Shown here in pieces: positions 1,508 to 64,000 of a DNA stretch of 64,000 bases. Below the pieces are notes generated by a model. The model had not been told where the DNA came from and did no database searches. It saw only the letters and a list, made by a program, of their open reading frames with translations. The stretch's first letter is position 1; the number at the start of each line of letters is the position of its first letter. The DNA comes from a virus: positions 50,944 through 114,943 of the IMG/VR virus record IMGVR_UViG_3300044953_000102; one strand, given 5' to 3'. The position numbers were made by a program, and so were the translations under genes.

Positions 1508-1513
1508 TAGGTT

Positions 1514-9042: not shown

Positions 9043-9282
9043 ATGGCAATTAAAAAAACAACAACAAAATCAACACCAGCTAAGAAAAGTTCTTCAGTTG
9101 GTATTTCTATTTTTGGTGGTAACAAAGCAGAAATGAGAAAATGGGAAGTTGAATCTGCTATGTCTACATTACAAAGAGCTTCTGAGATTCAGAAGAATGC
9201 AAAGTTAATGGCAGATGTAAAAAAGATGGCAGCTGAGAAAGCAAAAGAATTTAACAGTATTGCATCTGGTAAAAAGATTTAA
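9043..9282 (+). CDS. Small basic protein 4, unknown
   Basis: This 79-residue protein has a Lys/Thr/Ser-rich disordered start (about residues 1-20), a short hydrophobic segment (VGISIFGG), and a long amphipathic helix (about residues 30-75) rich in Ala, Lys, Glu and Met. No known family was recognised. It may be a helical DNA-binding or scaffold peptide. It starts two bases after the previous stop and ends two bases before the next start, inside the co-oriented basic cluster. Confidence 0.55.
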   Translation: MAIKKTTTKSTPAKKSSSVGISIFGGNKAEMRKWEVESAMSTLQRASEIQKNAKLMADVKKMAAEKAKEFNSIASGKKI

Positions 9283-10973: not shown

Positions 10974-11671
10974 TGTTAAATAGTACTATTACCATAAAGA
11001 TTAAACAAAGACTCAATAAACTTGACAGTCAAGATTATGATAACATAACCTGCTGGCAAGTTGTTGAGGCTTTTAATAAAGCTCAGGTGGAATGGTCTAG
11101 GAGACAGCTACATGGTATTAATGTAGTTAAGGAAGGTGATGAACAATCTACTCGTAGAAAGGATGACCTTCAAAAACTTTTAATTAAAACACCTTTGACT
11201 TCAGTAAAGAAAGATCTTTATTATGAAGGAGATGTTCCTGTAAACTATTTACAATGGAAACGTGTAGACATCTATGCAAAAAAAGAGTGTTGTGATAAAA
11301 GAAGAATGACTGTATATCTTGCAGAAGAAGGGAATCTTAATCAACTTCTGAGAGATAAATCAAAACAACCAAGTTTTGAATGGGCAGAAACATTTGCAAC
11401 TTTAATCAACGACACAGTACATCTTTACACAAACAATGAATTTGAAGTAGAGGAAGCATACCTAACCTACTACAGACAACCGGTAAAAATACAAATTGAT
11501 GGATGTTCAGATCCATACACCGGGATTACTTCCACTACAAATGTAGATTGTGAATTTAAAGATGACATAATAGAATTAATAATTGATGAGGCAGTAAGTA
11601 TTCTAGCTGGAGACATAGAGTCTGGAAACCAATTCTCTAGAACACAAGAATCTGCTGAACGTAGTAACTAA
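10973..11671 (+). CDS. Ring/head-tail adaptor-like structural protein
   Basis: This 232-residue protein has an alpha-helical N-terminus (a motif like ITCWQVVEAFNKAQVEWSRR), a middle beta region and a C-terminal pattern. In that pattern a strand (EEAYLTYYRQPVKIQIDG) is followed, after a Cys-containing loop, by a helix (DDIIELIIDEAVSILAGD). The same strand-then-helix architecture recurs in the proteins at 20397 and 21059 and resembles gp11-like tail adaptor/ring proteins of podoviruses. In crAss-like phages several such ring proteins stack between portal and tail. This gene is separated from the other two by about 9 kb of ferritin and fibre genes. Ring protein is an inference from pattern and context. 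Confidence 0.55.
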   Translation: MLNSTITIKIKQRLNKLDSQDYDNITCWQVVEAFNKAQVEWSRRQLHGINVVKEGDEQSTRRKDDLQKLLIKTPLTSVKKDLYYEGDVPVNYLQWKRVDIYAKKECCDKRRMTVYLAEEGNLNQLLRDKSKQPSFEWAETFATLINDTVHLYTNNEFEVEEAYLTYYRQPVKIQIDGCSDPYTGITSTTNVDCEFKDDIIELIIDEAVSILAGDIESGNQFSRTQESAERSN

Positions 11672-46046: not shown

Positions 46047-49000
46047 ATGATAGAAGAAACATTAAACTCTGCAGAAAGTATTAATAATCAACAGTCAGCT
46101 TTTCAACAGCTGATGTCTCAGAATAATTATCTTGATCCAGCAAAGATTGAGCAACCTCTTGCGCCACAATTAAACTGGAAAGATAATTTTGTTAATCAAA
46201 CTAATTTTATAAAAGATAATACTGCAGGTGTTACACCAGATTATCCACCATCAGAAGTAAAAAGTTCACAAGCAAATGGTCAGACAGGAGGTTCATTTGA
46301 AGCTGTCATGAATGGTAGTTTGGCTAAAGTAAATAACATGACTGATCAGGGAGCATATGTACAACCATATGCTTATGATGCATCTCCACAAGGTACTTTT
46401 AGAAAAAAATATAAAGCTTATGGTCAAGAAACATATAATAAAGTAGGATTTCACCCACTAATTGATAATGAAAGTTGGTTTAATCAAAATACTACATTTG
46501 GAGATGATTTAAAAAGATGGGCAACACATTCTGCATGGCCAATGTTGTCAAAAGGATTTATGGATCCTATTAAATCATACCAAAGTATTTTAAATGGTGA
46601 TGGTTTATTTTATGCAGATGAACAAAGTGCAAGAGACTATGAGTACTACAATGCAATAGGTGCATCAACAAAAGGTGGTCTTGGAGGATTTACTGTAAAC
46701 CTACTCAACTCTGCATCATACTCAATGGGTATTCTTGCAGAAGGTGCTGTTGAAGGTGCTTTGATTGGAGGTTTGTTTGGTGGAGGTAATGTTGCTACTG
46801 GTGCTTTAGAGGGTGCTGGTACTTTTTTAAATAAACTTGGTAGTTTACCAAGAGCATTAGTTGATGCTAGTAAAGCTATTGGTAAATTAATGTCTGGTGT
46901 AAAAAATTATTCAAATCTATCAAAAGCAAAAGAACTATTTGGTTCTGCTTCAAGACATTTTGGAAACTTTATTAATCCTTTACACAATACTACAGCTGCA
47001 TATCAACAATTAAAGAATACAGATAATATAACTAATCTTGCAAGAAGTTCTGTTACTGCTGGTGCACTTTGGCATGATATGATGTCTATGAACTTAGCAC
47101 TATCAGAAGGTAAACTTGAAGGAGGTTTTACAAAATATCAAGCATATGATAGATTATATAATGATTATGTAGCAGAAAACGGAGCACCACCTAGTCTTGA
47201 ACAACAAGAATCTATGATGAAACAAGCATCTAAAGGTGCATTCTGGAATACTTTATCTAACACAGCTTTAATTTACTATAGTTACAAACTTGTTTTTCCA
47301 TCAATTACAAATGCAAGTTTTTTAAAAGGAGTACCAAAATTTGCTTTTGGAAAAACTGTTGCAAATGTTGGTAAAGAGTTTCAAATCTTATTTGATCCAG
47401 GTAAAAAAGCTTTAGAAGGTGCTTTTACTAAACAAAGAGTCAATTTTGTAAATGCAATAAAGTCACTAGCAAAACCTCAAACATATGGTAAAGTAGGTCT
47501 TAATTACTTTAAAGCCAATGTTGTTGAAGGTAGTCAAGAAGTTATGCAAGATATCTTACAAGATACATTTCAAAACTACTATGTAAATACTTATAAAAAT
47601 AAAGATGCTAGAAACTTTAGATATGGTTTAGGATTAATGGGGGATGCTATTGAAAAACAATGGAGTGCTCAAGGTCTTGAAACATTTTTATCTGGTTTCT
47701 TAATGGGGACTATACTGCAAGCTCCTGGTTTTATTAAAAAATATGCCACAATTGGGTATAATGATTACCTTAAAAAAGATGCATCATACAAAGAATATCT
47801 AGATGGTAGAGAAGAATTAGCAGATACTGTTGTAGACCAATTAAATACTATGTATAAAAATGGTCACTTCTTTTTTGATCCTAGAATTAATAACTATGCT
47901 AATCAAGCTCTGGTAGCTAATGTTGTAGACAATCCAGAAGAGCATACTACTAAAGAAATAAAAGATGCAGAGTTTGCTGCATTTCAATCTGCTGTACTTG
48001 GTTCATTACAGAATGGAACCTTTGACATGTTTATAAAACACTATGAAGGTTACAAACAAGCATCAGCAGAAGATATAGAACAAGCATGGAGTTTAAAACC
48101 TGGTCAAGGTACAAAAGCATTAGAAAGATTTGACAAAGCATTAGAGAATGCAAAACAAATCAAAGACCGTTGGAATACTGCTAAAGAAAAAATGAAGTTC
48201 CAAGTTGATGCAACTCAGTATGCAGAAGGTACTGAAGAAAGAGCAATAGCAGAGATTTATAATAAAGCATATAGTCAGTCTCTTTATAATTATGTTTTTC
48301 TACATAACTCATTTGATGATAATGCAAAAAGATTAAATAAATTATATGAAGGAATAGCTTCTTTATCAGTACTGAAAAAATCTAATTTTGCAAACTTTGT
48401 TGGCTTTACAGATCCAACAAGATTAACAAGAGAGATAGAAATGCTTAAAACTGAGGTAGAAAACTTAGAAAGTTTTGGTACTTCAGAAGCTCTTGAGGAA
48501 GCAGCAAAGAAAAGAGAACTTGTAGAATTATATTCTAAGTTTAATGAAAAACAAGAAGCACTTGTAGACTTGTTTATTGATAAAACATTAGGAGAAAGCA
48601 ATATTATTACAACAAGACTAAACGAAATTAAAAAAAGAATTCTTGAATCTAATACTAATTTAGATGAAGATCAAGCCGCAAGTCAAGCTATTGAACAATT
48701 AGTTGATCAATATGAGTCTGGTGAAACTAATGAGTTTTTAGAATATAAAGAAGCATTCACTGAATTACTTTTTGGACTTGCAGATACTGCAGAAGAAAGA
48801 ATGCAGCTTGAACAAGAAATTCAAAGTAAAGGTGGAATAGATGATCTTTTTACAGATCTATTAGATACACATATACTTAAAAATGAAAATGCAAAACTTA
48901 TTGAGTATGTAAATATGCTTGCTACTCCAAGAGAGTTTTATGAGCATTTACAGAGAAACTTTAAGTTTATGAAAGATCTCTACAATAATAGAGAAGAGAT

Positions 49001-52000
49001 AGCAAAAGAGATCGTTAATCAAGAAATTGCAGCTATTGAAAACAATACTTTATTAAACACTTTAGCTGACCAAGGAGTATATGTAGATTTGGACGAATTT
49101 GCAGAATGGATTGAAACCAGAAAATTACCAGAACAATTTTTTGATGTTCCTAATAAAAGAATAATTAACAAGGGTTCAGTATTATATGAAGATTATATTG
49201 ATATATTCTATAGAGCTGCAGAATTAGCAAATAAAAAACCTGCTGGTGAACCATTTACTCAAAAACAATTACTTGATAAAAGAATTGAAGAACTTGAAAG
49301 TGAAAAAGCCGGTTTACTTGATAAAGAAAAAGAAAAGTTTGATGCTAAATTTCAAGAGGTCTATGGAATGACTTTGGAAGAATATAGAATAAAAGAATCT
49401 GAGAGAGTTACTGCAGAAACTTTAACTGATGAAGAAAGACAAAAGTTAGAAAATGAGAAAAAACTTTTAACAAAAGCTGCTGAACAGCTACAGTCTGATA
49501 ACTATGTAGAGGTGCAAGCAGCAGCAGAAGTTGTTGCAGAAGAAATCTTTACTAAGAAAAATGAAAGTGCTGAAGATTTCTTTAATCAGCAAACAGAAGT
49601 TCTTAAAAATGATCGTGATAAAAATAAATCTGTTTTCCAACTTTCTCAAAAGTACGACACTTCTGATATAGAAGATGCTCAAGAACAATTCAATGAAAGA
49701 ATAGATACTGCATTAAAATCTATAATTTATTCACAAGCTGTTTCTGGAAGACTTGCTGAGATAGAACAAGAACTTACTAAAGAACCTGCAGCTCCAGAAA
49801 TAGATGTAGAAAATACTAAAGAATTTTTAGCATATCAGGAAGCTGTTGATGCCATTAATGAAAAGTATGATAATCTTATATCTGAAGTTAAAGAAGACTT
49901 TAGAAGTAAAGGTATAGATGAAAATACTCCAGATCAATATACAACTAAGACAGAATTTTCTGACTTTGATGCACCATTCCGTGAACAAATCACTGAAGAG
50001 TTTGATACTTATTTAGTAGATGTATTAGGGGAGTCTTTAGATATTAAAACCAAAAATCCTTTAGAGTACGAAAGACTTAGAAAAAATTGGTTAGAAACAC
50101 AGACTAATTTAATTAACCAGTTTAATGAAGAAGCTAAAAGACTTGCAGGAGAAAGAGCTGCAAAACTTGCAGAACCACCTGTATTGAAATTTTCTAATAC
50201 TCAAATTGGAGCTAATACTCCTACATGGATTATTGCTAAAATGATTGATAGATACCAGTCATATTTAGAAGCTGGAGAATATCCTAATCCTCAAAAGGTA
50301 GATGAAAAAATTCAACTAACTCCAGAAACTATTGCTATGATCAATGAAGACATAGCAAGTCTAAATGGTTATTTGAATGCAAGAGTTAAGATGGCTCAAC
50401 CTAGAAACATTGCAGAAGAAACTATTGAAATTATACAAGAAAATGTAATTAATAAACAAGATGAAATAGTTGAGATACGTGATGAAGATGGTAATGTAAT
50501 TGGTAGAAATTTTAAAGATAGAGGTCCTACTGATCCAAGACCAGATCGTGTTACCGAAGTTGCTGAAGAAGTTGAAAATTCTATAAAGGAAAAAGAACCT
50601 TTTACATATAGTCCAATTAAACCTGTAGTAGATGCGGAAGGAAATGTATCACCATCTCCTGTAGAAAATCTATATAATCAATTCTTTAATGATCCTGAAA
50701 TAGTTCCAGAAGATCGCATTAGACTTTTTATGGAAGCATTTAAGAAAGAAGTATATAGAGGTAAAACTTCTGGATGGAAAGAATTTAGATTTGATGAAAA
50801 ATTAGAAGCTGTAGAAAACTCACTTAAAACTGTAGGTACTTACGAAGACTTAAGAAATACAATTGAGAAGTATGCTTTTAAAGAATCATCTGATGCCGGA
50901 GATTATGTTGATGGATTAATCAGAATATTCTTGACACCTAATGCAGCTACAGCATCTAAGTTTAGTGAGTTTAACTATAACTCAACTGTAGAGTTAAAAG
51001 GACGGCAAATTAAAATATCAGATGTAATGTCTAGAAAAGCATTTGATAAATTATTTGCTCCGGTAACTTCAACAAGTCAAGGAGGTATAGTTACTAAATT
51101 TAGACTTGGTATTGTAGATGGTACTTATACTATTCTTTCTGAAAATGTTAAATTATTTGACAAATCTTTAAGAGACGGTAAAGGTGTAACTGGTGAGGTA
51201 GATTTACTTCTTATAAAAGAAGATGGTTCTGTAGCTATTGTAGATATCAAAACTAAAAAAAGCTGGAAAACTTTTGGAGATCCAAAAGCAAAATATGAAA
51301 GCTCAACCTACTTTAGAGCACAACAATCAATCTATGCAAATTTATTTTACAATAATACAGGAATAACTCCAGAGATTAAATTAATGCCTTTTGAAGTTAC
51401 TCTTAGTTCTGATAAAATAGGTTATATAGATGATATTGAATTAGCTAGTATTGTACCTGCTGGACAAGATACATTTGATTTAGAATACTTACCAGAAGTT
51501 GAAAACTTTGGAATTGTAAAAATCAAACCAGAAATAAAAACACCAGTTAAAAAAACAGAAACTCCTACTCAAGAAATGGGACAAGGAATTCCTGAGTCTG
51601 ATCCAGTAATGAATAAACTAAAAGATAATGTAGATAAAGCAGTCATCTTTAATGGACGTACAGGTAAGCTTGTTAGAATGTCTAATGGGGCTTTTGGAGT
51701 AGAAGTAGTTGTAAATAGTAACATAACTGGATTACAACTTACACTTGATGCATTACAAGCTAATCTAGCAATTGAAAAAGGAGAGTTTGGAAATCCTGAA
51801 CTTATTGGAGAAATTGAAAACCAAATCAAAAAAATATCTGAAGCAATTGAATCTACTAAAGGTTTAACAGAAGTATTTCCATTACAGGTTGATTCTAAAA
51901 ATGTAACTAATGGTGACGTAACTTTAGATAAAGCAGGAGTACAACTTGTTATTCCAATCCAATCAATTGGTCAGCTATCTACTGTAAATGGTCAAGTAAT

Positions 52001-53468
52001 TAATGCAGCATTTTCAAATAAAGAAAAATCAATTGCTACAATAAATGGTGTTAAGTATGAAGTACTAAGAGATGCTAGTGGAAATATAACAGTTCTTAGT
52101 TATATGTCAAATGATGAAATGATCAGTCAAATCAACAAACAAGTTGGAAAAATGGCTGCTAAAATTTCAGATCTCCGAAACTCTGTTACTGTAGAAGCAA
52201 ACACAAATAGAAAAGATAGTTTACTAAATAGAATAGCAAAACTACAAGAAGATATTAGAACTCTTGATGGTAAAAGAAAATCTTTAATAGAGTCTAATAA
52301 AAAGATGTATCTTTATGGGGAGAATGCAAACAATTATATTTTTGCATTAAATAGATTACCAAATAACTTCCAGAGACTTACTGCAAATGCAACTAAAGCA
52401 AATGAAACACAAGATCTTAAGTCTATTAGTAATTTATCTTCAGACAGCACTATTGCAGATAATATTACAGAAATACTTTCTGATCAATATCCTGAAGCAT
52501 TAGACAAGCTTATAGATGGAGAAACAAAAGATTTAACTTCTGGAGATCTTTTAAAAATTCAGTTGTGGATAGAAGACTCAATAGAAAGATTAAATCAATT
52601 AGGATATACGGTAATTAACAGGGGTGATATTATTGATGATATAACAAATCAAATTAATGCCCTCAATGAAGTAAGAAATAACTTAGAATTAATTAAATTA
52701 ACTAAAGATGGAAAAATCTTCAACTACAAACAAATCGCAAAAATCTTCAGTGGATCAGAAGTACAGGAAGGGACTGGTGTATCTAAGGATGCGGGGACTA
52801 CCAGAAAACCGTCAGAAGGAGTTTCTAGACCAGCTACAAGAGAGGAACTTAAAGACCTTGTCAAACAAGCAAGAGAAGAAAATCTAGGTGAAACATTTGG
52901 AGAACCTACAGCACCAACAGTAAATTCTGCTGCTGTAGAAAAAATAATGAATGCTACACTAAGTAATATTGAAGAAGTTTATCAAACTGAGTTCCTTAAA
53001 GCTCAAGCAAATGATGAAGATATTACAGGATTAACTGAAGCATACAACACTAGACTACAAGAATTAAAGACTGTTGTGTCTATACAAAATGTAGAAGTTG
53101 GTGAATATCTTATTACTAAAAATTTTATTTTTGTAGGACCTACTAAAGTAGGTACTAATGAAATAGTTATTGTAACTAAAGTAAATAGTGATAAAGTCAC
53201 TTTAAAGAACATTAAAACAAATGTATCTAGAGAATTTACAGAAGCAGAACTTGTAGAAAATTTTGAAAAAACAACTATGGAAGCAACACAACCAGAACCA
53301 GAAGCAACATTAACACCAAATGATGTTGAAGATTCTAAAGAGTCAAAAGATACTGTTAAAGAAGTTATGAATGACCAAGAAGCTCTTAATAAATCAAAAG
53401 AGCAATCTAAAGCATCAAATAAAACTTCACGATGGAAGAAATTAGGAGAAAACTCAAATCTTTGTTAA
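46047..53468 (+). CDS. 2473-residue cargo protein with PD-(D/E)XK nuclease domain
   Basis: This giant protein lies directly before the RNA polymerase gene (1 bp gap). The N-terminal 600 residues are helical, with Gly/Ala-rich hydrophobic stretches near 210-250 (a possible membrane or channel part). Residues about 670-1500 are charged coiled coils. A RecB/Cas4-like nuclease core occupies roughly 1660-1800. It has Asp1719 (GEVDLLL), Asp1733 and Lys1735 (VDIKTKK), and QQSIY with Gln1759/1760 and Tyr1763. The order D...D-x-K...Q-x-x-x-Y is diagnostic. More helices follow, then a small beta domain (about 2345-2400) and a basic C-terminus. The nuclease could cut host DNA or process ejected DNA. It is also a candidate RNA polymerase partner subunit by position. 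Confidence 0.7.
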   Translation: MIEETLNSAESINNQQSAFQQLMSQNNYLDPAKIEQPLAPQLNWKDNFVNQTNFIKDNTAGVTPDYPPSEVKSSQANGQTGGSFEAVMNGSLAKVNNMTDQGAYVQPYAYDASPQGTFRKKYKAYGQETYNKVGFHPLIDNESWFNQNTTFGDDLKRWATHSAWPMLSKGFMDPIKSYQSILNGDGLFYADEQSARDYEYYNAIGASTKGGLGGFTVNLLNSASYSMGILAEGAVEGALIGGLFGGGNVATGALEGAGTFLNKLGSLPRALVDASKAIGKLMSGVKNYSNLSKAKELFGSASRHFGNFINPLHNTTAAYQQLKNTDNITNLARSSVTAGALWHDMMSMNLALSEGKLEGGFTKYQAYDRLYNDYVAENGAPPSLEQQESMMKQASKGAFWNTLSNTALIYYSYKLVFPSITNASFLKGVPKFAFGKTVANVGKEFQILFDPGKKALEGAFTKQRVNFVNAIKSLAKPQTYGKVGLNYFKANVVEGSQEVMQDILQDTFQNYYVNTYKNKDARNFRYGLGLMGDAIEKQWSAQGLETFLSGFLMGTILQAPGFIKKYATIGYNDYLKKDASYKEYLDGREELADTVVDQLNTMYKNGHFFFDPRINNYANQALVANVVDNPEEHTTKEIKDAEFAAFQSAVLGSLQNGTFDMFIKHYEGYKQASAEDIEQAWSLKPGQGTKALERFDKALENAKQIKDRWNTAKEKMKFQVDATQYAEGTEERAIAEIYNKAYSQSLYNYVFLHNSFDDNAKRLNKLYEGIASLSVLKKSNFANFVGFTDPTRLTREIEMLKTEVENLESFGTSEALEEAAKKRELVELYSKFNEKQEALVDLFIDKTLGESNIITTRLNEIKKRILESNTNLDEDQAASQAIEQLVDQYESGETNEFLEYKEAFTELLFGLADTAEERMQLEQEIQSKGGIDDLFTDLLDTHILKNENAKLIEYVNMLATPREFYEHLQRNFKFMKDLYNNREEIAKEIVNQEIAAIENNTLLNTLADQGVYVDLDEFAEWIETRKLPEQFFDVPNKRIINKGSVLYEDYIDIFYRAAELANKKPAGEPFTQKQLLDKRIEELESEKAGLLDKEKEKFDAKFQEVYGMTLEEYRIKESERVTAETLTDEERQKLENEKKLLTKAAEQLQSDNYVEVQAAAEVVAEEIFTKKNESAEDFFNQQTEVLKNDRDKNKSVFQLSQKYDTSDIEDAQEQFNERIDTALKSIIYSQAVSGRLAEIEQELTKEPAAPEIDVENTKEFLAYQEAVDAINEKYDNLISEVKEDFRSKGIDENTPDQYTTKTEFSDFDAPFREQITEEFDTYLVDVLGESLDIKTKNPLEYERLRKNWLETQTNLINQFNEEAKRLAGERAAKLAEPPVLKFSNTQIGANTPTWIIAKMIDRYQSYLEAGEYPNPQKVDEKIQLTPETIAMINEDIASLNGYLNARVKMAQPRNIAEETIEIIQENVINKQDEIVEIRDEDGNVIGRNFKDRGPTDPRPDRVTEVAEEVENSIKEKEPFTYSPIKPVVDAEGNVSPSPVENLYNQFFNDPEIVPEDRIRLFMEAFKKEVYRGKTSGWKEFRFDEKLEAVENSLKTVGTYEDLRNTIEKYAFKESSDAGDYVDGLIRIFLTPNAATASKFSEFNYNSTVELKGRQIKISDVMSRKAFDKLFAPVTSTSQGGIVTKFRLGIVDGTYTILSENVKLFDKSLRDGKGVTGEVDLLLIKEDGSVAIVDIKTKKSWKTFGDPKAKYESSTYFRAQQSIYANLFYNNTGITPEIKLMPFEVTLSSDKIGYIDDIELASIVPAGQDTFDLEYLPEVENFGIVKIKPEIKTPVKKTETPTQEMGQGIPESDPVMNKLKDNVDKAVIFNGRTGKLVRMSNGAFGVEVVVNSNITGLQLTLDALQANLAIEKGEFGNPELIGEIENQIKKISEAIESTKGLTEVFPLQVDSKNVTNGDVTLDKAGVQLVIPIQSIGQLSTVNGQVINAAFSNKEKSIATINGVKYEVLRDASGNITVLSYMSNDEMISQINKQVGKMAAKISDLRNSVTVEANTNRKDSLLNRIAKLQEDIRTLDGKRKSLIESNKKMYLYGENANNYIFALNRLPNNFQRLTANATKANETQDLKSISNLSSDSTIADNITEILSDQYPEALDKLIDGETKDLTSGDLLKIQLWIEDSIERLNQLGYTVINRGDIIDDITNQINALNEVRNNLELIKLTKDGKIFNYKQIAKIFSGSEVQEGTGVSKDAGTTRKPSEGVSRPATREELKDLVKQAREENLGETFGEPTAPTVNSAAVEKIMNATLSNIEEVYQTEFLKAQANDEDITGLTEAYNTRLQELKTVVSIQNVEVGEYLITKNFIFVGPTKVGTNEIVIVTKVNSDKVTLKNIKTNVSREFTEAELVENFEKTTMEATQPEPEATLTPNDVEDSKESKDTVKEVMNDQEALNKSKEQSKASNKTSRWKKLGENSNLC

Positions 53469-53469
53469 A

Positions 53470-56400
53470 ATGGCATGTAGTTTAAATAGAGATCAAGTAT
53501 TAGATCTTTATGAAGTAATTTATGGTGAAATCATTGATAGAATTAAAGATTCTAATTTACCAGCTATTGATATTAATCAATTAATAAAAGAAACATATAG
53601 TGTTGTAAAAGAAGGTTCTGGTGATCAAGTAAAAGCTTTATTATATGCTCAGGCAATTCCAGATGTATTTCAATTAGTTACACAGGATGAAGAAGTAAAT
53701 GATTATCTAGTAGATAATAATTTTGACTTTACTGGTCTTGCAAAAATGAGAAAAAGATTTGCAGATCTTGCTGAAGTAGGAAAAGATGTTGCTCAAGAAA
53801 AAATGAGTAAGGATGAAATAGATTCAAAGATTAAAGAAACTAATAAATCTAAAAAAGATTTTTCTCTTAAAGTGGATGTTGATCCAAAGATTCTTTGGTC
53901 TTTTAATGAAGAGAATGGTGCAAAGGTCAGTAGTGTGTGGACTACTACTATTCAAATGGCTGTTGCACAAAATCCAGAAACAGTTTCTGATGAAGACAGA
54001 AATAAAATGGATCCTGAGAAAAAGTTATTTTCTGATGTTGTTAAATCAATTGCAAGAATTGCTAAGGAAAGATCAGGAAATGAACCAATTATTTATCAGG
54101 GAAGAGTGTTAACTCTAACAGCATTACTAACTAGAAACATAGATCGTGATTTATTAACTACAAGTGATAAAACACATATGGAGAAAAACCCTGATGACAA
54201 GGGTATATCTGCAGTTATAACAGATGAAGATGGTAATTTCTTATATTTTACCGAAGAAGGTAATATAACAGATAATCCTGAAGAGGGTCGCATTGTATAT
54301 CAGTATTTAAGAAGAGTAACTAATCAGAATGGTGAGCTCTATATTGGTAATCCTCAAAATAAACAAGGTAGAAAATATACACTCATTGATCCAGAAGTTC
54401 TTGCTAAAAGACATGCTGAAAAAATTGAAGAAAATGGTGGTAAGGTTTCCAAAGAGTTACTTAACTCACTAATAAAACAATATACTGAAAATCAATTAAG
54501 ACAAGTTAATCAGCTTTATGAGCTCAGAAAATTAATTGAAAATGGTAATGTTGAACAAATTATACTTCCAATTACGAGAGCTACATTTGGTGTTGCACCT
54601 ACGGCAACCAAAAGAGTTACTATTGTAGAGGCAGGTATAACTGAAGCAGATGTTAAAAGAGCTGTACCAATCACTAGTGGAAAGTATAGGGGTTATCAAT
54701 ATCTAATAGTTCAAAAAAATAAACCTGGTGAAATTGTTGCAGAACAAGAACTTTTAATAAGTTATTCATCTATAACACCAGAAATTGCAGAAAAAATTGC
54801 AACCGTTCTTACTACAAAAGCTTTATTAAAAGGTAGAGAATTAACTCCTGATGAAAGAAAAGCATATTTTGAACTCTTTATTAATAATACAAAAAAAAAT
54901 GATTCAAATACAAATCGTGATAGAATACAAGTTTTTACAAGAGTAATAAATGGTGAAAAAACTTTTGTTGTAGAAATTGCCGGAAAAAAAATTCCAGAGA
55001 CAGTTCTTTATACAGAAGAAGGTAAACAAATGATAGTAGATCATTTACTTGGTGTAAGTAATACAGCAAGACCTAAATATGTTGCAACAGGTAAAGAAAT
55101 AGGTTCTAATGAATATTGGCCTGCAAATGTTTCTTTCAACTTTACTGGAATGAAAAAACCATTTCCTGATTATGAAATTGAGGGTAATACAATAAAAGAA
55201 ACTTTAAAAAATTACTTTGATACAATCAAATCATTTGTCAGAGTAGTATATACAGATCAAACGTTAGCAGAAGAGGAAGGATTAAATGCATATATTAATT
55301 ATGTAATCCCTGAAGGTACTATTGATAATGAAGGAACTATTCCATTGTATAGACCTAAAACACAAACACAACCTCAAACAAAAACTAAAACTGATAAAGA
55401 AGTAACAAAACCTACTACAAAATCACAGTCACGGAATAAACCGGCTAATACATCTACACCACAAAAGGAATCAACATATACCATTTCTATGAAAAACCAG
55501 ATAAAAGATGCTGGTGGTAAAGTTGAGAATTACAAACCAAGAATGAAAGTAGATGAGTTAGCTAAAGCTGTTGGTCTTACAGAGAAACAAATCATTCAGT
55601 TTAGAGCAAATGCATTAGATGCAAGTCCAGATATAAAATCTACTGTACCAGCTAAACCTTTAACAGAAGCAGAAGTTAAAGAAACTAATGTTGAAAATAA
55701 TCCAGCAACTAGAGTAAATTTATTTGCTGATATTCTTGAAGGTTCTTCTAACAGTGCTTTATATAAAAAAGCAGAAAAGAATGGTCTTAATAGAGACAAA
55801 CTAAGAGGAAAATTTCTTGATAAAGTATTCACATCCAAAGCAGATAGAGAAGCTGCTGAAAGATGGTGGAAAAATTCTCCATTAAGTAAATTCATCTCTC
55901 TTGAGAGAATTACTGAAGTAGTAAACTCTGATGCATTTGCAACCTGGGCAGGATATGGTATTACACTTTATGAAGCTGATGGCGGTACATCAGTAGATCT
56001 TTACCACGAAGCATGGCATGGATTCTCACAGTTGTTCCTAAGTAAGAACACTAAGATAGACATGTATGAAAAACTATTAAAACTTCCAAAATATGCAAAT
56101 AGAAAATATGCTACAAAAGAAGATGCATACTTTGATATAGAAGAAGACTTGGCTGAAGAGTTTAGAGATTATGCAAAGTCTAAAGGTAAAAAAACAACTA
56201 AAGGATTCTTAAGTAAGATTTTTGATGCAATTTATCAGTTCATCAAGAATATGTTTGGTAGAACTAACAAGAAACAGGTTGCTACAAATCTTCAAGATAT
56301 CGATACTGTTAAAGAAATGTTTGACAAGTTGTATAGAGCTTCAGAAAATCCAGAGATTCTATCTAATCTAAAACCTTCTATGGATAATGTAATGTTTGGG

Positions 56401-59400
56401 AAACTAAACAGAGCAAAAACCATCAATGATAATTTTACATTAGAAGAGTCTAAAAAGATTTCTAATGCTATGGATAGTATGATGGCTGTTATATTCCAAA
56501 ACTATAACAGAGACTTTAATACTTCTGCCGCAGCAATAAAACTTTTAAAGAATCCTGAGTATAAAAAAGATCTTTATAAAGATATCTATGATAGATTTGA
56601 AAGACTTAGAATATCTTATATAGATCAGCTTGAACTTAATGATGAGTTACTGTTAGATCCTAAGTTTGTTAAAGAGTACGATCTTTTAGTTAAAATTACT
56701 GATAACTATGGTAATCTTACCGGAACACTTGACGGTAAAGAAAAAAATAATGTTATTGCTTATCACTTAGAGAAATCTAAATTTAAAATTCTTAGAGAGC
56801 AATATATTGAAATAGAAGATCCAAGTAATATTGAAAAGAGTTCAATATTTATAAAGAATGATGGCAATACAATTTCAGCAAAAGAATTAGCAAGTATAGA
56901 AACTATGATGTTACTTGCTAGTGTCTTTAAAGTAACAAGAATTAATGGTGAAGTTGTACAAAGTAGAGAAGGTTTATTTGGTCTTCCTGAACTTCAAGAT
57001 GTAGATATCACATGGAATAGACTTGCTAAAATACTACAAGGTTCATATGATGAAATGGATATGTACATTAGAATTTATGAAAATTCTGAAAACTATCCTG
57101 AGCTTAAGCAATTACTAAATCTTTTACCAGATCCATTTAAAATTAAAATGGGTTCTGAATATGAATCTAGTCTTGAATTTGATTCAGAAACAAATTTCTG
57201 GCAGGACTTTAAGAAACCAAGAATTCCTTATATACAGCTTAATCTAAACAAAGAGTATAAAAAATCTGAAGGAGCACCTACTATTAAGGAATATGAAGCC
57301 AGAATAGCAAAAGCTAATTTTGATGTATACCAAGTAATTCAGGATTGGAAATCTAATTTTGCAACAGCAGATTCTACAATCAATCCATATATTATAAAAG
57401 ATAAGTATGATAGAAACTTGTTAAACACAGCTAAAATAGTTGCAGACTTTGGGACTGATGGACGTTTCAATTATAAAAAAGCAAATGAGTTTCTTCAAGC
57501 ACTTGGTATTGTATTAGATCAATCAAGTACTGCTATTCAATCCATACTAAATAATACTACCAAACCTTTTAGTGCAACATTTGGTGTTGATAGAATGTAT
57601 GAGGTAATTAAAAAAGTAAATAAAAGTATTTCCCCAGATGCATTTCTATTCAAAAGAGATCCATTGACGTTTTTACTAAATGGTCTTCCTAGTTCATTAA
57701 GGGATAATGAAAAACAAAGTGAAGAAGTAAGAGGTAGACTTAGAGCTATTGCTGAAATACAAAATAAATTTTCAGACAGTTATTCTAACTTTAGTGTTCA
57801 GACTCCTGAAGGTAATAGAGTTTGGGAACACATGGTAGATAATACTATTACAAGAATTGTAACGGCAATAAACTTTGCTAAAAACTGGCAAGAGTTAACT
57901 ACAGATGCCGCAGATCCTGCTGGTAGATTTAAACAAATGAGATGGTTGAATGAAGCCAATAATACTTTCTCTCCATTCTCTAAAATATTAAGATCTATTT
58001 TTGATCTTGATCCAATGTCATCTACATATGGTGAGAAAATAACAGATACTAAACTTACTCTAAGTAATGTGGCTGGAACACAAATGGTAAGTTATAAAAA
58101 TGAAGGTGGGACATCTACTGCAGCTATGGATGCTACAAGTAAGTATCTACAAGAGTTTCATACAATGCTGTTGAATGGTGTAGAAGAGTTTATGAGACAT
58201 GCTTCTAAAAACACTGCAATGGGTCTTTCTGTAGATGGGGATATAATAACTTATAATGGTAAAAAGGCTGGTAGATTATATGTAGATATAGAATCCTTTT
58301 TAGAGTATGCTGACGGAGAAATTAAAGGATATGATATAGTTGAAGGTTATATTGCCGCAGAAGCAAATAGAATAGTTAGATTCCAACAAGACATAGATAA
58401 ATATAAAAACTATGCAGGATATAACAGAAAAGTAAAAAGAAAAGACAATCAGAAAACTCCAGTAATGGCTGGACAAGCATTTACAGCATTTGATGATGTT
58501 TTATCTCAGGGAGTTCAAGCTGAAATATATTCTATTCTAGATAAAGTTTCTAAAAATCCATTAGCTGATTTTAATTTTATTTCTGAACTTGATAATAATC
58601 CAGAACTACGAAACAAAATAAGAAAAGATGTAGCTGAATATTTTAATCAAGATACAGATGAAAATTTAAAAAGATTACAAAAAGCTAAATATATAGATAA
58701 GGGATTATTTAATAGAGTAAAAATAACTAATGATCAACTTACAGATGATGAGGTAGAACGTGCTTTAGTAAAAGCATACACTTATAACTCATTTATCCAT
58801 AAAATGGAAACTGTAATCTTAGCATATGGTGATTTAGCACAATACAATCATGCTAAAGAAGAGTTTCATAAAAGAAATGCTGGTTTAGGTTCTGGTGGTA
58901 GAGGGTTCCGTGCAGATGCAAGAGCACAAGTATATCTTAGTTCTTTAAAGAATTACTATGCTGAAAGAAGAGGTTATAATGTAAGAAACTATGATGGAAC
59001 TTTAGTTACAGCTATAATGAAAGAAATGACTTTCAATTCTGTAATGTACAAAGAATACAGAGATGCAATTGAAGAGGCTGTATTTGAAAGAACTAAAGAC
59101 AAGAAAAAAGCAAAAGAAATTGCAGATATCTCAGCATCAGAATACTTCAATGAAGATAAACCACAGATGAAAATTGCTGATGGTCAAGGTCTAATTTCAT
59201 TTGAATGGTATAGAATACTTAAAAATGCTGAAGGAAATTGGAGTGCTGAACAAGAGTTACTGTATAGAAAAGTTTCATTAGGAGAAAATATTACTGCAGA
59301 AGATGTGGTAGAGTTCTTTCCACCATATAAATTGCAGTACTTTGGTAATATAGAAGCAACTGGTCTTCCTATAAATTCATTTCATAAATTTTCACTTGCA

Positions 59401-62400
59401 CCAATAATTCCAGGAGTATGGAAAGAAGGTACACCAATATTTGATTTACATGAAAAAATGATGGAAGATCAAGTAGATTATGTTTTATTTGAGTCTGGAT
59501 CTAAAGTGTCACATCTTGGTTCTGGAGATCAAATACTTAATCCTAATGGCACATTTAATAAAGATGTTAAGTTTACTAAAAATATAATTTTTGCTGATTT
59601 CTTAAAGAATCAAACTGAAATAAACTCAAGCTATAAAGATAAATCAATCTTTTCTACACAGATGAGAAAAATGATTTTAGAAGGTCTTTATGAAAGAGGT
59701 AAAATTAAGTCTACTAAATATAATGATATTACTAATGATAGAGTAAAAAAATATATACGTAATGTAGAAGAATACACAAATCTATTAAAACTAGAACTTC
59801 TAGAAGAAATGGGTTATGAAGAAACTTCTCCAGGAGTTTATAAAACAAAAGACAATTCTAGTACAGGTAAGCTTTTAAATATGATTAGACAAAATCTTGA
59901 AAGAGAAGATCTTTTAAGTGATGATCTTATTGAGTTTATTGATGTATATGATGAGTCTGGAGAACTTGAACATGATTTGTCTTTCCATCCAGAAGCTGCT
60001 AAAATAGAGAAGTTATTACTCTCTATGATTAATAAGAGAATTATCAAACAAAAAGTTTCTGGGGAACCACTAGTACAAGTATCTGTAGGTCTTACTGCTG
60101 GTCAATTTACTAAACCTGATTTAAGAAAAGCAACAAAAGATGAAATAAAAAAGTGGGCATCAGCTACATATCTACTTCCTGGTTATCATAGAAAATCTAA
60201 TGGTTATACTGCAGCATCCAAAGTAATGATTGCAATGCGTGGTACATATTATAATCTTTTCAATTTAGAATACCAAGATGGAGAAACTGTTGGTGTATAC
60301 TTTGAAGATGGTAAACTGGATATGGATGCTTCATTAGCAAGATTAAATGAAAAGATTAAAGATGATGCTTGGTTAGATGCAGACAATGAAGCTAACAGAA
60401 AAGCAATAACTCTTGTTGGTGTAAGAATTCCAGTACAAGGTCTTGCACAAATGGAGTTTGCTGAAGTGTTTGAATTTTTACCACCTCAAGCAGGAAATAT
60501 TATCATTGTTCCAGCAGATATTGTTGCTAAGTCTGGGGCTGACTTTGATATTGATAAAATGACTACATATATTACTACACTTGATGAACAAGGTAAAGTA
60601 ATAAAAAGAGAATATAAAGACAATGATGAAATTAAAAAGCTTAGAGGAACTGATCAATTTTTGCAAGCTATTACTTTACAAAAAATAGCATTAGAAAATG
60701 AGATGATTCAGGATATGAAAAATATTTTGGAGCTTCCAGAAAATTATGCTTCTTTGATTATGCCAAACGGTACTTTTATTCTTAAAGAAATTGCAGATAA
60801 ACTAGCATCAAAGGTCATGGAATATAATCCTAAGAAGAATAAAATGACTGAAGATACTGGAGAAATTAGTCCTACGAGAGTACTTGAAGCATTATATAAT
60901 GTATACAAACATGAATCAAATATTGTAGGTAAGAAAACTTTAGGTCTGGGGGCAATTGAAAATACATTCAATGTGATCATGAATACATTGGGTGCCTACA
61001 TGCCTGATGAATATATTATCAGCAAAGAGGTAAGAAAAAGTAATATGCGGTTGAGACATAACAAAATGGATAAAAATGGCAAAGAAGTTATTTCTATGTC
61101 AGACCTCTATGATGTTGATGGAACAAATAAAATCTCAGATGTTATATCACAAATGATGAACGGATGGGTAGACGTTGAAAAGGATGCATGGATCTTCTTT
61201 ATTCAGGGTAACTATGAGGTTGCTCCAACATTACTCTATCTTGTTAAAGCTGGTGTGCCAGTAAAAGAAGCAATTTATTTTGTGTCAAATCCATTAGTTA
61301 GAGAATATGTAGATGAACAACGTCTTGCTAAATCTACATTTGCTGATGTGCTTGGTAAAAAACCTAAAAGTCCAGGACTTGCAAAATATCAAGCTGCATC
61401 AAATATTATTAAAAAATACTTTGATAAAGATCAATTGAAAGGAACATCTAAAAATGATGAAAGATATTTAGCAGGTCAAGACTTATTAAATGAGTTTTTT
61501 AAAGGTAAAAAGCAAAAGCATTTTACGGAAAATGAAATGTTAGATCTAATTGAAACAGATAATAGAAATAGTGATATAGCAAAAGCAATGTTCTTACATT
61601 ATCTAGAATTAGAACAACAGATTGCTGGCTATACTGCATTGAAGATGTCATCTAATCCAGATACAAGTACTAAGTCTACTCTGTCTGATGTAGAACAAAC
61701 AGAAGCAAATATTGAAGATTTATTCTTTGATAAAAGAGTTCCAACAGAAATAGTTGAAGCTATGATTGATGACTCAATTTTAAAGTCATTTTTTAATGGT
61801 CCTTTAGCTCTGGCTGTAAGTAGACCTTTATTTAAATTAAGATATCATAAGACAATTAGTGATTACTTAATTGGCAAGAAAGATAAAATACGAGAAGATT
61901 TAGAAATTACATTCCCTGGTAAAAACATTGAAATGTTTAGTAATGTATTTAGAAATGACTTGGTAAGTTTTATATTTCAAAATGCCATTAGAAAATATAA
62001 AAAAGAAGATGGTTTTATATCTTTAAACATGGATACCACTATTCCAACATCTATGGCAAAAGAACTTAAGAGAGGTGCATTTGTTAAGAATGGTACTTTA
62101 TATCTTGATATGAAGCAGCTTCAAAAAGAGTTTAAAGAAAAAGCTTGGATTAAAAATTCTGAAGCAGAAAATAGTTATGAAAATAGAGGTTTATATCCTT
62201 TACATCCATCAACATTCATGAATAACTTTGAAGTTAACTTCAATGAGTATTTAAATTTTGTATCTCAAAGAGAATATTTAAGGTCTATTACTCCAATGAC
62301 TCAAGAGTATGTTGATTCATTCTATTTCAAAGAAGAACTTAAAAATACAAAAGAACTATTTGAAGATTTGTCTAATGAAAAAGCCGTAAGATATACTTAT

Positions 62401-64000
62401 GAAAAACTGTTAGCTGTACAAGCATTAGATAATGCATTTAATTTCTTCCATCTTTTTCAAGATAATGAGAATTCATTTGCTGTTAGAATGACACAGCTTT
62501 TACAGAATTATCCAAATCTTAAAAAAGATTTTCCTGTTTTGTCTAAATTAAAATTTGATTCTTCAAAACAAGAATCTGCATTTAATTTATATATAGCTGA
62601 TAAAGATTTTGATAATGATAAATCTAATCTATATACAAATGACTTAAAGAAGCTTGCTGATCCTACAGTTAACAAAGTAAATGACCCTGTAGAAAATGCA
62701 AGAATAAGTTCTATGTTTAAATATCTAAATCTATATGCATTCTTACAAACAGGATTAAATAAAACTAAATTAAGCTTTACAAATATCACTGACTTTACTG
62801 ATATACTAACTATCTTAGAAAGTGAAGCTGAATTATTTATGAATGCATTAGATAAAAATGGGGTTAATCTTTTAGATAATTTTTATGATTTATTTGTAAG
62901 ACAAAATAACTCAGATATAAATACTAATAAATCACGGTTTAAAGATTATCTTTCTAATATAGATTATGAAAATCCTGAAAAAATTAAACGTCCTGAAACA
63001 GCAACTGAGTTAACTGCTCAACAACCCACTCAAGGTAGTGTTAAACCAGGAGTAGATGAACTATTTGAATCTAATCCTGAATTAGCTAATCAGATACACG
63101 AGGTTTTAGGATTTAAAATAGAGTTAAACGATACTTTTATAAATAACTTAAAAACCACTGGTTATAATAAGTATAAAAAGTTAAATACATACGATTTAGA
63201 AAAAGAAGCGTCTAAATTAGGTGTCACTTTAAAAAAAGTAGAAGCAGGAATACCCATTCCTTTTAATAAATTTCAAGACATTAATAGTGCTTTTCAATAT
63301 ATATTGAGTTCTTCTTTACCTAATAGATTAAATATAGACTCTCTTATTAAACTAAAAAAAGAGTATTTGATTAAAGTACAATCAGAAAACGACAGGCAAT
63401 TAGGATTAAACAGTATAGATTATTTAATTGAGTTGTTAAATAATCAAGTAACTCCGCAACAAAAACAACAAGCTCAACAACTTTATTCTCAATATCTAAA
63501 TACTATATTTCCAGATAGTAAAGTGAAGGATATTGTTTATCATGGTACTAAAGGAGAAAAATTTGATAAGTTTATATCTTCTGAAAAAGGAGAATTTGGC
63601 AAAGGTGTTTATTTTGGAAATTATCAAACAGCTTTAGAAAATACGGATACGTTAGATGATTTTACATTAGAACCGAAGATAGGTTTTAATAAAAATAAAA
63701 TCATAGCTGCTGTAATAAATACTCAAAATATATTTGAAAGAAATTTAGGAGGAAATGGAGTTAGAAATGAATATGTAGTTGAACCAGAACAAATCCACAT
63801 ATTAGGTAGTAAACAAGATATAGAAGGGTTTAAAGAGTTTGTTAGTCAACCATCTACTCAACAACAAGGTAGTGTTACAAATAATCCAGCAGAATATACT
63901 AATTATCATGGAGGTGCTAAAAAGTATGATACTTATTGGGAAACTGATGGTAAAACTTTTGGAGTGGAAAAACATACTGTGTACACTACTGATTCTTATG
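53470..64000 (+). CDS. Giant virion RNA polymerase with zincin, ADP-ribosyltransferase-like and SLOG-like domains (3' end outside window)
   Basis: The frame is open from ATG 53470 to the right edge, at least 3510 codons. An HExxH zincin is near 780-900: HEAWH at 846-850 and probable third ligand Glu896 (EEDLAEEF). The RNA polymerase core covers roughly 1900-2500. It has a beta-like segment with Lys1973 (SFHKFSLAP) and Lys2012 (FESGSKV), then RIPVQGLAQM and GADFDIDKM with Asp2358, 2360 and 2362. This matches the DxDxD active site of crAss-like virion RNA polymerases (phi14:2 gp66) and parallels cellular NADFDGDQM. Residues 3350-3450 resemble an ADP-ribosyltransferase: His3358 (VYHGT), Tyr3381 (GVYFG), Glu3438/Glu3440. 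From 3478, YHGGAKKYDTYW looks like the start of a SLOG/YAcAr domain. It probably transcribes early phage genes after ejection. Confidence 0.85.
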   Translation, partial: MACSLNRDQVLDLYEVIYGEIIDRIKDSNLPAIDINQLIKETYSVVKEGSGDQVKALLYAQAIPDVFQLVTQDEEVNDYLVDNNFDFTGLAKMRKRFADLAEVGKDVAQEKMSKDEIDSKIKETNKSKKDFSLKVDVDPKILWSFNEENGAKVSSVWTTTIQMAVAQNPETVSDEDRNKMDPEKKLFSDVVKSIARIAKERSGNEPIIYQGRVLTLTALLTRNIDRDLLTTSDKTHMEKNPDDKGISAVITDEDGNFLYFTEEGNITDNPEEGRIVYQYLRRVTNQNGELYIGNPQNKQGRKYTLIDPEVLAKRHAEKIEENGGKVSKELLNSLIKQYTENQLRQVNQLYELRKLIENGNVEQIILPITRATFGVAPTATKRVTIVEAGITEADVKRAVPITSGKYRGYQYLIVQKNKPGEIVAEQELLISYSSITPEIAEKIATVLTTKALLKGRELTPDERKAYFELFINNTKKNDSNTNRDRIQVFTRVINGEKTFVVEIAGKKIPETVLYTEEGKQMIVDHLLGVSNTARPKYVATGKEIGSNEYWPANVSFNFTGMKKPFPDYEIEGNTIKETLKNYFDTIKSFVRVVYTDQTLAEEEGLNAYINYVIPEGTIDNEGTIPLYRPKTQTQPQTKTKTDKEVTKPTTKSQSRNKPANTSTPQKESTYTISMKNQIKDAGGKVENYKPRMKVDELAKAVGLTEKQIIQFRANALDASPDIKSTVPAKPLTEAEVKETNVENNPATRVNLFADILEGSSNSALYKKAEKNGLNRDKLRGKFLDKVFTSKADREAAERWWKNSPLSKFISLERITEVVNSDAFATWAGYGITLYEADGGTSVDLYHEAWHGFSQLFLSKNTKIDMYEKLLKLPKYANRKYATKEDAYFDIEEDLAEEFRDYAKSKGKKTTKGFLSKIFDAIYQFIKNMFGRTNKKQVATNLQDIDTVKEMFDKLYRASENPEILSNLKPSMDNVMFGKLNRAKTINDNFTLEESKKISNAMDSMMAVIFQNYNRDFNTSAAAIKLLKNPEYKKDLYKDIYDRFERLRISYIDQLELNDELLLDPKFVKEYDLLVKITDNYGNLTGTLDGKEKNNVIAYHLEKSKFKILREQYIEIEDPSNIEKSSIFIKNDGNTISAKELASIETMMLLASVFKVTRINGEVVQSREGLFGLPELQDVDITWNRLAKILQGSYDEMDMYIRIYENSENYPELKQLLNLLPDPFKIKMGSEYESSLEFDSETNFWQDFKKPRIPYIQLNLNKEYKKSEGAPTIKEYEARIAKANFDVYQVIQDWKSNFATADSTINPYIIKDKYDRNLLNTAKIVADFGTDGRFNYKKANEFLQALGIVLDQSSTAIQSILNNTTKPFSATFGVDRMYEVIKKVNKSISPDAFLFKRDPLTFLLNGLPSSLRDNEKQSEEVRGRLRAIAEIQNKFSDSYSNFSVQTPEGNRVWEHMVDNTITRIVTAINFAKNWQELTTDAADPAGRFKQMRWLNEANNTFSPFSKILRSIFDLDPMSSTYGEKITDTKLTLSNVAGTQMVSYKNEGGTSTAAMDATSKYLQEFHTMLLNGVEEFMRHASKNTAMGLSVDGDIITYNGKKAGRLYVDIESFLEYADGEIKGYDIVEGYIAAEANRIVRFQQDIDKYKNYAGYNRKVKRKDNQKTPVMAGQAFTAFDDVLSQGVQAEIYSILDKVSKNPLADFNFISELDNNPELRNKIRKDVAEYFNQDTDENLKRLQKAKYIDKGLFNRVKITNDQLTDDEVERALVKAYTYNSFIHKMETVILAYGDLAQYNHAKEEFHKRNAGLGSGGRGFRADARAQVYLSSLKNYYAERRGYNVRNYDGTLVTAIMKEMTFNSVMYKEYRDAIEEAVFERTKDKKKAKEIADISASEYFNEDKPQMKIADGQGLISFEWYRILKNAEGNWSAEQELLYRKVSLGENITAEDVVEFFPPYKLQYFGNIEATGLPINSFHKFSLAPIIPGVWKEGTPIFDLHEKMMEDQVDYVLFESGSKVSHLGSGDQILNPNGTFNKDVKFTKNIIFADFLKNQTEINSSYKDKSIFSTQMRKMILEGLYERGKIKSTKYNDITNDRVKKYIRNVEEYTNLLKLELLEEMGYEETSPGVYKTKDNSSTGKLLNMIRQNLEREDLLSDDLIEFIDVYDESGELEHDLSFHPEAAKIEKLLLSMINKRIIKQKVSGEPLVQVSVGLTAGQFTKPDLRKATKDEIKKWASATYLLPGYHRKSNGYTAASKVMIAMRGTYYNLFNLEYQDGETVGVYFEDGKLDMDASLARLNEKIKDDAWLDADNEANRKAITLVGVRIPVQGLAQMEFAEVFEFLPPQAGNIIIVPADIVAKSGADFDIDKMTTYITTLDEQGKVIKREYKDNDEIKKLRGTDQFLQAITLQKIALENEMIQDMKNILELPENYASLIMPNGTFILKEIADKLASKVMEYNPKKNKMTEDTGEISPTRVLEALYNVYKHESNIVGKKTLGLGAIENTFNVIMNTLGAYMPDEYIISKEVRKSNMRLRHNKMDKNGKEVISMSDLYDVDGTNKISDVISQMMNGWVDVEKDAWIFFIQGNYEVAPTLLYLVKAGVPVKEAIYFVSNPLVREYVDEQRLAKSTFADVLGKKPKSPGLAKYQAASNIIKKYFDKDQLKGTSKNDERYLAGQDLLNEFFKGKKQKHFTENEMLDLIETDNRNSDIAKAMFLHYLELEQQIAGYTALKMSSNPDTSTKSTLSDVEQTEANIEDLFFDKRVPTEIVEAMIDDSILKSFFNGPLALAVSRPLFKLRYHKTISDYLIGKKDKIREDLEITFPGKNIEMFSNVFRNDLVSFIFQNAIRKYKKEDGFISLNMDTTIPTSMAKELKRGAFVKNGTLYLDMKQLQKEFKEKAWIKNSEAENSYENRGLYPLHPSTFMNNFEVNFNEYLNFVSQREYLRSITPMTQEYVDSFYFKEELKNTKELFEDLSNEKAVRYTYEKLLAVQALDNAFNFFHLFQDNENSFAVRMTQLLQNYPNLKKDFPVLSKLKFDSSKQESAFNLYIADKDFDNDKSNLYTNDLKKLADPTVNKVNDPVENARISSMFKYLNLYAFLQTGLNKTKLSFTNITDFTDILTILESEAELFMNALDKNGVNLLDNFYDLFVRQNNSDINTNKSRFKDYLSNIDYENPEKIKRPETATELTAQQPTQGSVKPGVDELFESNPELANQIHEVLGFKIELNDTFINNLKTTGYNKYKKLNTYDLEKEASKLGVTLKKVEAGIPIPFNKFQDINSAFQYILSSSLPNRLNIDSLIKLKKEYLIKVQSENDRQLGLNSIDYLIELLNNQVTPQQKQQAQQLYSQYLNTIFPDSKVKDIVYHGTKGEKFDKFISSEKGEFGKGVYFGNYQTALENTDTLDDFTLEPKIGFNKNKIIAAVINTQNIFERNLGGNGVRNEYVVEPEQIHILGSKQDIEGFKEFVSQPSTQQQGSVTNNPAEYTNYHGGAKKYDTYWETDGKTFGVEKHTVYTTDSY

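Follow-up and report, generated by a model that had tools for sequence, protein, structure and literature searches.

We find, with high confidence, that a giant crAss-type virion RNA polymerase carries a recombining cargo slot: a site between the polymerase core and a conserved terminal domain whose content is exchanged between near-identical phages. The polymerase is encoded at the end of a 64,000-nucleotide stretch of viral DNA (hereafter the window), which covers positions 50,944 to 114,943 of IMG/VR record IMGVR_UViG_3300044953_000102.

The polymerase gene is an open reading frame (ORF) at 53470..63999 on the plus strand, which starts with ATG, spans 3510 amino acids (aa) in the ORF list and is open at its 3' end. 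The last base of the window is also the last base of the 114,943-bp virus record, and the gene is therefore truncated by the contig end. Profiles built on relatives place a zincin-like metallopeptidase region at aa 692-1048, the RNA polymerase (RNAP) core at aa 1487-3020, an ADP-ribosyltransferase (ART) domain at aa 3337-3480 and a partial SLOG domain from aa 3471. An earlier note on this DNA, made from the letters alone, had described these elements as parts of one uninterrupted frame, and the ORF list and profiles bear this out. Extension to the stop codon, which that note had proposed as a check, succeeded in part: the IMG/VR contig L006 is 100% identical to the window over 14,681 bp and continues for a further 1,057 bp in the same frame, which thereby reaches 3862 aa and holds a complete SLOG domain (aa 3471-3675), with the stop still beyond the end of L006. 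Closed ORFs of relatives bridge the missing stop. L279 (genome G001) encodes 4163 aa from ATG to stop, with zincin (aa 577-926), RNAP (1348-3038), SLOG (3201-3426), ART (3740-3914) and terminal domain (3956-4113), and L281 (G007) encodes 4373 aa with zincin, RNAP, NADAR and ART. We found no missed stop or frameshift between the polymerase core and the C-terminal domains, an error that the note had named as refuting its claim. Since L279 has the same domain set in one closed frame, the fusion in the window is not an assembly artefact, and we regard this anatomy as practically certain. The chain unites several unrelated enzymatic domains and is encoded with virion genes, as described for polyvalent proteins (Iyer 2017). 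Scans of the whole protein against Pfam and PHROG were uninformative, and slices and relatives were required.

The identity of the polymerase core (57928..62529, plus strand) is borne out by homology to the solved structure of phi14:2 gp66 (6VR4), in agreement with the crAss-type core recognised earlier by its DFDID motif. A profile of 20 relatives matches 6vr4_A with E=3.7e-34 in four collinear stretches, including the catalytic DFDID at 60541-60555 (aa 2358-2362), and the D, F, D and D of this motif as well as a K are invariant among these relatives. The same profile also matches phi14:2 g066, crAss001 gp50 and the polymerases of cr108_1, cr113_1, cr126_1 and cr130_1.

Comparison with close relatives reveals the slot. 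Their closed polymerases are 3249-3623 aa long, and a conserved terminal domain (...MPQELFVYLSKRLFEEF...DPFKC) forms the C-terminal end. Between the core and this domain, L007-L010 hold no cargo, L013 holds a DUF7831 domain (5.7e-9), and L014 and L028 hold NADAR (9e-15 in L028). The corresponding region contains a GNAT-like domain and ART in L025, and ART and SLOG in the window, the terminal domains of both lying past the contig end. At the DNA level, homology of the window to the cargo-free L007 and L008 ends at 62973-62984, which is the end of the core, while L025 is homologous at one linker and again at the next, but not in the module between them. Cargo linker 1 (63019..63117, plus strand; QQPTQGSVKPGVDELFESNPELANQIHEVLGFK) is shared with L025 and recurs further on in L006 as a near-repeat (87 bp, 92% identity). 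It is followed by a variable cargo domain of no recognised family (63118..63444, plus strand), which is not shared with L025 and has no Pfam match. ART is the commonest module found. At 12 of 80 ART loci it forms part of the RNAP ORF, C-terminal of the core, at about 29 it lies in ORFs after the RNAP and at 3 more in the giant protein downstream, while at 33 no RNAP was detected within the sequence stretch covered at the threshold used.

Direct swaps are observed in pairs of near-identical phages. L280 and L281 have 13,217 bp in common at 99.71% DNA identity (3677 aa at 99.8%) and then diverge, with SLOG and ART in the former and NADAR and a different ART in the latter; identity resumes at a linker (105 bp, 85%) and permanently inside the ART at EPEQIHILGSKQDIEGFKEF (402 bp, 93%). 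Similarly, L138 and L143 are flanked by sequence that is 98.1% identical over 7.1 kb upstream and 96.7% identical over 6.1 kb downstream, between which L138 carries SLOG and two ARTs and L143 a 2OG-oxygenase-like domain (6e-6, under the Pfam cut-off) and SLOG, the two SLOG domains having a 619-bp stretch at 90% identity in common. Each of these two haplotypes occurs in two datasets (L138/L141, 99.95%; L143/L144, 100%). L139 is without about 1.1 kb between two ART C-frames (9083-9195, 29-bp overlap), which is consistent with the L138 haplotype minus one of its two tandem ARTs, lost by recombination at the C-frames, but its contig ends 112 bp later. Compared with the near-identical L066, L109 (2317-5954) has about 3 kb of additional cargo directly upstream of the ART frame, including an L,D-transpeptidase (YkuD, 3.2e-9); both loci have a small ferritin-like gene, seen by eye, after the RNAP. 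A macro-like stretch in L280 and L281 (IFVFGSNPEGRHGAGA), also spotted by eye, had no Pfam match and is not claimed; Pfam was equally negative for a DUF4326-like stretch in L143.

The joints at which cargo changes are conserved as DNA. The ART is framed by YSQYLDTIFPDSKVKDIVYH and EPEQIHILGSKQDIEGFKEF. In the window, the N-frame of the cassette (QVTPQQKQQAQQLYSQYLNTIFPDSKVKDIVYH; 63445..63543, plus strand) is present as a single copy in its contig and is conserved across phages at synonymous sites, and the C-frame (EYVVEPEQIHILGSKQDIEGFKEF; 63769..63840, plus strand), conserved at third positions, forms the right edge of the L280/L281 swap. Among 53 sequences, the interior of the ART is 24% identical, whereas the frames reach an identity of 0.80 at third positions, for which codon usage predicts 0.60, and the two Ile codons of the N-frame are fixed differently, one as ATA (45 sequences) and the other as ATT (49). 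When IMG/VR was scanned with the fully degenerate peptide, 22 of the 63 matches were an identical 39-mer (35%, against 0.14% expected). Contig ends fall within 700 bp of ART cassettes in 11 of 80 cases, with 2.4 expected (Poisson p=4e-5), an excess to be anticipated if populations carry several cargo versions with common joints. Recombination at these joints appears to be the simplest cause of their conservation. Outside phage sequences, the only bacterial-genome contig with the N-frame peptide was L270 (CAIQRY010000048.1), a 6.8-kb bin contig that is possibly phage DNA.

The two modules of the window belong to families with predicted roles in ADP-ribose (ADPr) chemistry. Family membership places an ART-PolyVal-type domain at 63478..63867 (plus strand; aa 3337 to about 3466). 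PF18760 (ART-PolyVal) is matched by 33 of 35 members of the ART family (best 7e-14); the window copy has no direct match and is placed by homology (1.7e-44 to our own profile, which includes this copy). The signature YH is invariant among homologues. A combined ART and SLOG alignment was discarded for structure prediction, as it mixed the two domains. The SLOG start (HGGAKKYDTYWE; 63880..63999, plus strand) was assigned by profile and motif alignment, with a score of 1.2e-15 for the partial domain and of 2.4e-86 for the complete domain in L006, and its GGA...D and GGT..A motifs are invariant in 6 homologues. In a set of 80 IMG/VR loci collected with the SLOG profile, and thus biased towards relatives of the query, SLOG shares an ORF with a crAss-type RNAP at 47 and with an N4-type virion RNAP (vRNAP) at 2. 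Among named phages, this SLOG finds its best match in the N4-type vRNAP of Klebsiella phage Pylas (34% identity), and one SLOG family is therefore found on two unrelated virion polymerases. Phage SLOG and NADAR domains have been predicted to process ADP-ribose derivatives and so to counter host immunity based on nicotinamide adenine dinucleotide (NAD) (PMC9503650); the ligand sensing first attributed to this domain is one option beside that prediction.

The zincin-like region (55543..56613, plus strand) contains HEAWH at 56005-56019 (aa 846-850) and a Glu-rich, acidic motif, EEDLAEEF, near 56134-56163. The H, E and H of the HExxH motif and the later Glu are invariant in 17 relatives, and crAss001 gp47 and RNAP ORFs of gut crAss phages have this motif as well. 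The zincin profile matches the C-terminus of crAss001 gp47 (4e-13) and the ORF parts preceding the polymerase core in cr108_1, cr113_1 and cr130_1, and by these matches the region is part of a separate virion protein in crAss001, but RNAP-fused here and in Suoliviridae. The giant protein encoded after the RNAP in L007-L035 (e.g. L009, 14349-21683) has a conserved HExxH of its own in 19 of 19 relatives, near aa 205 or 660-870 in short and long N-terminal forms, and in L009 also a LysM domain (1.2e-5). These features point to a second, N-terminal cargo slot as a likely part of the downstream protein.

Together, the slot, its content and the position of the gene lead us to a reading that we hold with moderate confidence, in which the virion-delivered polymerase is a chassis for recombining NAD/ADP-ribose effectors that probably act against host defence. 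The giant polymerase would be packaged in the virion and ejected with the DNA, as suggested by its orthologues. Of these, crAss001 gp47, gp49 and gp50 were detected in virions (PMC10172136), and phi14:2 g065-g067 are annotated from virion mass spectrometry; virion presence and early-gene transcription are known for orthologues only (PMC10172136, PMC7886860). Because the window gene adjoins structural genes and is orthologous to virion-packaged polymerases, its delivery with phage DNA is a fair inference. The modules (ART, SLOG, NADAR, GNAT-like, 2OG-oxygenase-like and others) would be exchanged by homologous recombination at the short DNA-conserved linkers. Judging from their families, which fall within the published NAD+-ADPr set (PMC9503650), and from their position on the polymerase, their substrates would be NAD+ or derivatives of ADP-ribose, and their action would fall in the first minutes of infection, when the polymerase is transcribing early genes; the most likely outcome is a weakened NAD-based defence of the host. 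We consider the chances that anti-defence is the main cargo role to be even. The least certain step concerns the zincin-like region, which may cleave the chain or serve some other purpose; self-cleavage is a tentative suggestion that we would bet against.

Several results weigh against this reading or its parts. No terminal domain or stop of the window's own gene is seen before the contig end; a terminal domain resembling that of L279 is predicted ahead of the stop. The fold of the zincin, one of the domains announced in the earlier note, was not recovered: its predicted model was poor (predicted local distance difference test, pLDDT, 58.6) and matched nothing in the PDB, and the region has no Pfam zincin match, so the putative zincin label stands on the motif and homology described above. 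The ADP-ribosyltransferase-like domain of the same note is upheld by family membership, with weak fold recovery: the top 40 PDB matches of its model (pLDDT 70) are all PARP/ARTD, with a probability of up to 0.89 and a best E of 0.08, which is not significant. SLOG members match the Pfam families cpYpsA, DprA, LDcluster4 and YAcAr, each weakly (best 0.006-0.01). The same modules are also found in the next gene or as separate genes, and RNAP fusion is therefore not required for their use. The N4 vRNAP, which has a metallopeptidase domain, is packaged uncut (PMC5512222). Conservation of the linkers could partly reflect a recent spread of whole cassettes or another DNA-level function. Finally, cargo activity and ejection are predictions from families and orthologues.

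The strongest competing explanation, though an unlikely one, is host takeover, in which the ART would modify host RNA polymerase or translation proteins in the manner of T4 Alt, with SLOG and NADAR tuning or undoing the modification, so that the cargo serves host shut-off and not anti-defence. T4 Alt is indeed an injected ART acting on host RNAP (PMC5512222), and ART, the most frequent module, is adjacent to a phage polymerase for which inhibition of the host enzyme would be of benefit. However, many of the polymerases are without ART, and takeover by itself leaves unexplained why NADAR, SLOG, 2OG-oxygenase-like and GNAT-like domains replace one another in near-identical phages. It is improbable that the cargo consists of diversifying toxins comparable to those of polymorphic toxin systems, with co-infecting phages or the bacterial host as targets: a conserved carrier, variable C-terminal domains and recombination at conserved joints fit this model, but no immunity gene was recognised beside the cargo, and NADAR and SLOG are predicted to remove or process derivatives of ADP-ribose more than to act as toxins (PMC9503650). 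Still more doubtful is a purely structural role, in which SLOG, ART and the other modules would be degenerate handles for packaging or ejection. The C-terminal region of the N4 vRNAP is needed for encapsidation (PMC5512222), yet the signature residues are kept here (YH in ART; GGA and GGT motifs in SLOG) and close relatives have cargo-free polymerases. Chimeric joining of unrelated genes at repeated linkers, which the accumulation of contig ends near ART cassettes, where assemblers struggle, might suggest, can be dismissed almost entirely, since two contigs agree completely across the junction for 14.7 kb, relatives encode closed ORFs of 4163 and 4373 aa with related architecture, the L138- and L143-type swap haplotypes each occur in two datasets, and zincin-RNAP-SLOG fusions are present in finished GenBank genomes.

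The polymerase gene is accompanied by a crAss-type structural block. Terminase, portal and head genes occupy the start of the window on the same strand, with PHROG matches for portal (4e-98), terminase (1e-40) and major head protein (1e-31). The closest named relative of the portal (1514-4261) is that of the cyanophage Lbo-JY46 of Leptolyngbya (34%, 1e-110), while identity to many crAss-like phages, gut ones included, is about 23%; any family placement within Crassvirales is therefore tentative. The RNAP profile had no match in those giant proteins of Lbo-JY46 that were examined. Directly upstream of the polymerase, and likely in the same transcription block, a 2473-aa giant protein (46047..53468, plus strand) shows a weak PD-(D/E)XK signal at aa 1700-1764 (Pfam E 0.04-0.09, under cut-off). 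The giant protein 3' of the RNAP in relatives, which lies beyond the contig end of the window, matches phi14:2 g065 (1.5e-21) and crAss001 gp49 (3e-16). We also noted a group I intron (Rfam RF00028, 6.6e-19) inside the DFDID motif of the RNA polymerase gene of cr108_1 (L003, 9889-10207), whose halves are annotated as two genes, and a shifted RNAP frame in L021 (10558-10705), which is seen in one contig, has no detectable intron and is probably a sequence error. Outside the window, the same virus record (G000) encodes an N-acetylmuramoyl-L-alanine amidase domain at 46748-47272 (PF01510, 2.7e-19) and has a second DFDID-coding DNA match at 11075-11089 on the minus strand, which may be due to chance.

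The polymerase, the domain families and the fusion of vRNAPs to other domains are already known, the last from PMC5512222 and PMC10770324. Consequently, the suggestion that the fusion is an undescribed one-off is not supported: zincin-RNAP-SLOG ORFs are already deposited as 'DprA-like', and N4-type vRNAP fusions were described in 2017 (PMC5512222). The slot with cargo exchanged between near-identical phages is the more unusual feature. As far as the literature searched shows, the exchangeable effector slot, the direct swap pairs and the DNA-conserved joints are new, as is the observation that crAss- and N4-type polymerases employ one SLOG family in parallel; we found no paper on swappable cargo in crAss polymerases, the figures and supplements of PMC7886860 and of the phi14:2 structure paper lying outside the search. 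The slot points to a route by which counter-defence enzymes could enter the cell before gene expression, built into the polymerase that must enter first. The natural near-isogenic pairs, with the same polymerase and different cargo, make the function of each effector directly testable. The 'DprA-like' and 'DUF1768' entries of gut crAss phages turn out to be virion polymerases, and some of these bear effector cargo.

Among known systems, phi14:2 gp66 (PDB 6VR4) is a homologous two-barrel polymerase with DFDID and the same gene order relative to a giant virion protein, g065, which has its own HExxH. Unlike the window protein, gp66 is 2180 aa long, has no match to the zincin profile and showed no zincin, ART or SLOG motif. 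In crAss001, gp50 is the RNAP, gp49 matches the downstream giant protein and gp47 ends in the same zincin-like region, but these are three separate proteins, with the zincin not fused to the RNAP and no ART or SLOG motif seen in them. Related in architecture are the 'DprA-like' proteins of the Suoliviridae cr113_1, cr109_1 and cr130_1, single ORFs with a HEAWH or HEAFH zincin, DFDID RNAP and SLOG in the same order. Those of cr113_1 (4328 aa) and cr130_1 (about 5800 aa) come from finished GenBank crAss genomes. They differ from the window protein in that no ART was detected, the annotation names the SLOG alone and in-frame stops occur under the standard code. Similar to the window protein, gp96 of Thermus phage P23-45 has a two-barrel virion RNAP within a 5002-residue virion protein; it is a tape-measure fusion, for which the passages of PMC10770324 consulted report no such effector cargo. 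Polymorphic toxin systems likewise combine a conserved carrier with recombining variable C-terminal domains, but here a phage RNA polymerase acts as carrier, the cargo is followed by a terminal domain and no immunity genes were recognised. PMC10770324 acknowledges that both crAss and N4 virion RNAPs occur fused to large proteins, and N4-type vRNAPs fused to a metallopeptidase and ART were described in 2017, with release by the metallopeptidase as a hypothesis (PMC5512222). These injected polymerases resemble the window protein in content, the Pylas vRNAP also carrying SLOG, yet they are built on an unrelated single-subunit polymerase with a different domain order; in fact, the crAss core profile gave no significant match to the Pylas and PT15-A5 vRNAPs, and SLOG alone is common to both types. 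It is about as likely as not that crAss-type and N4-type vRNAPs, which are unrelated, independently became delivery chassis for NAD/ADP-ribose effectors, the crAss slot being a recombination hotspot with DNA-conserved joints through which a single phage population maintains a polymorphic set of injected anti-defence enzymes.
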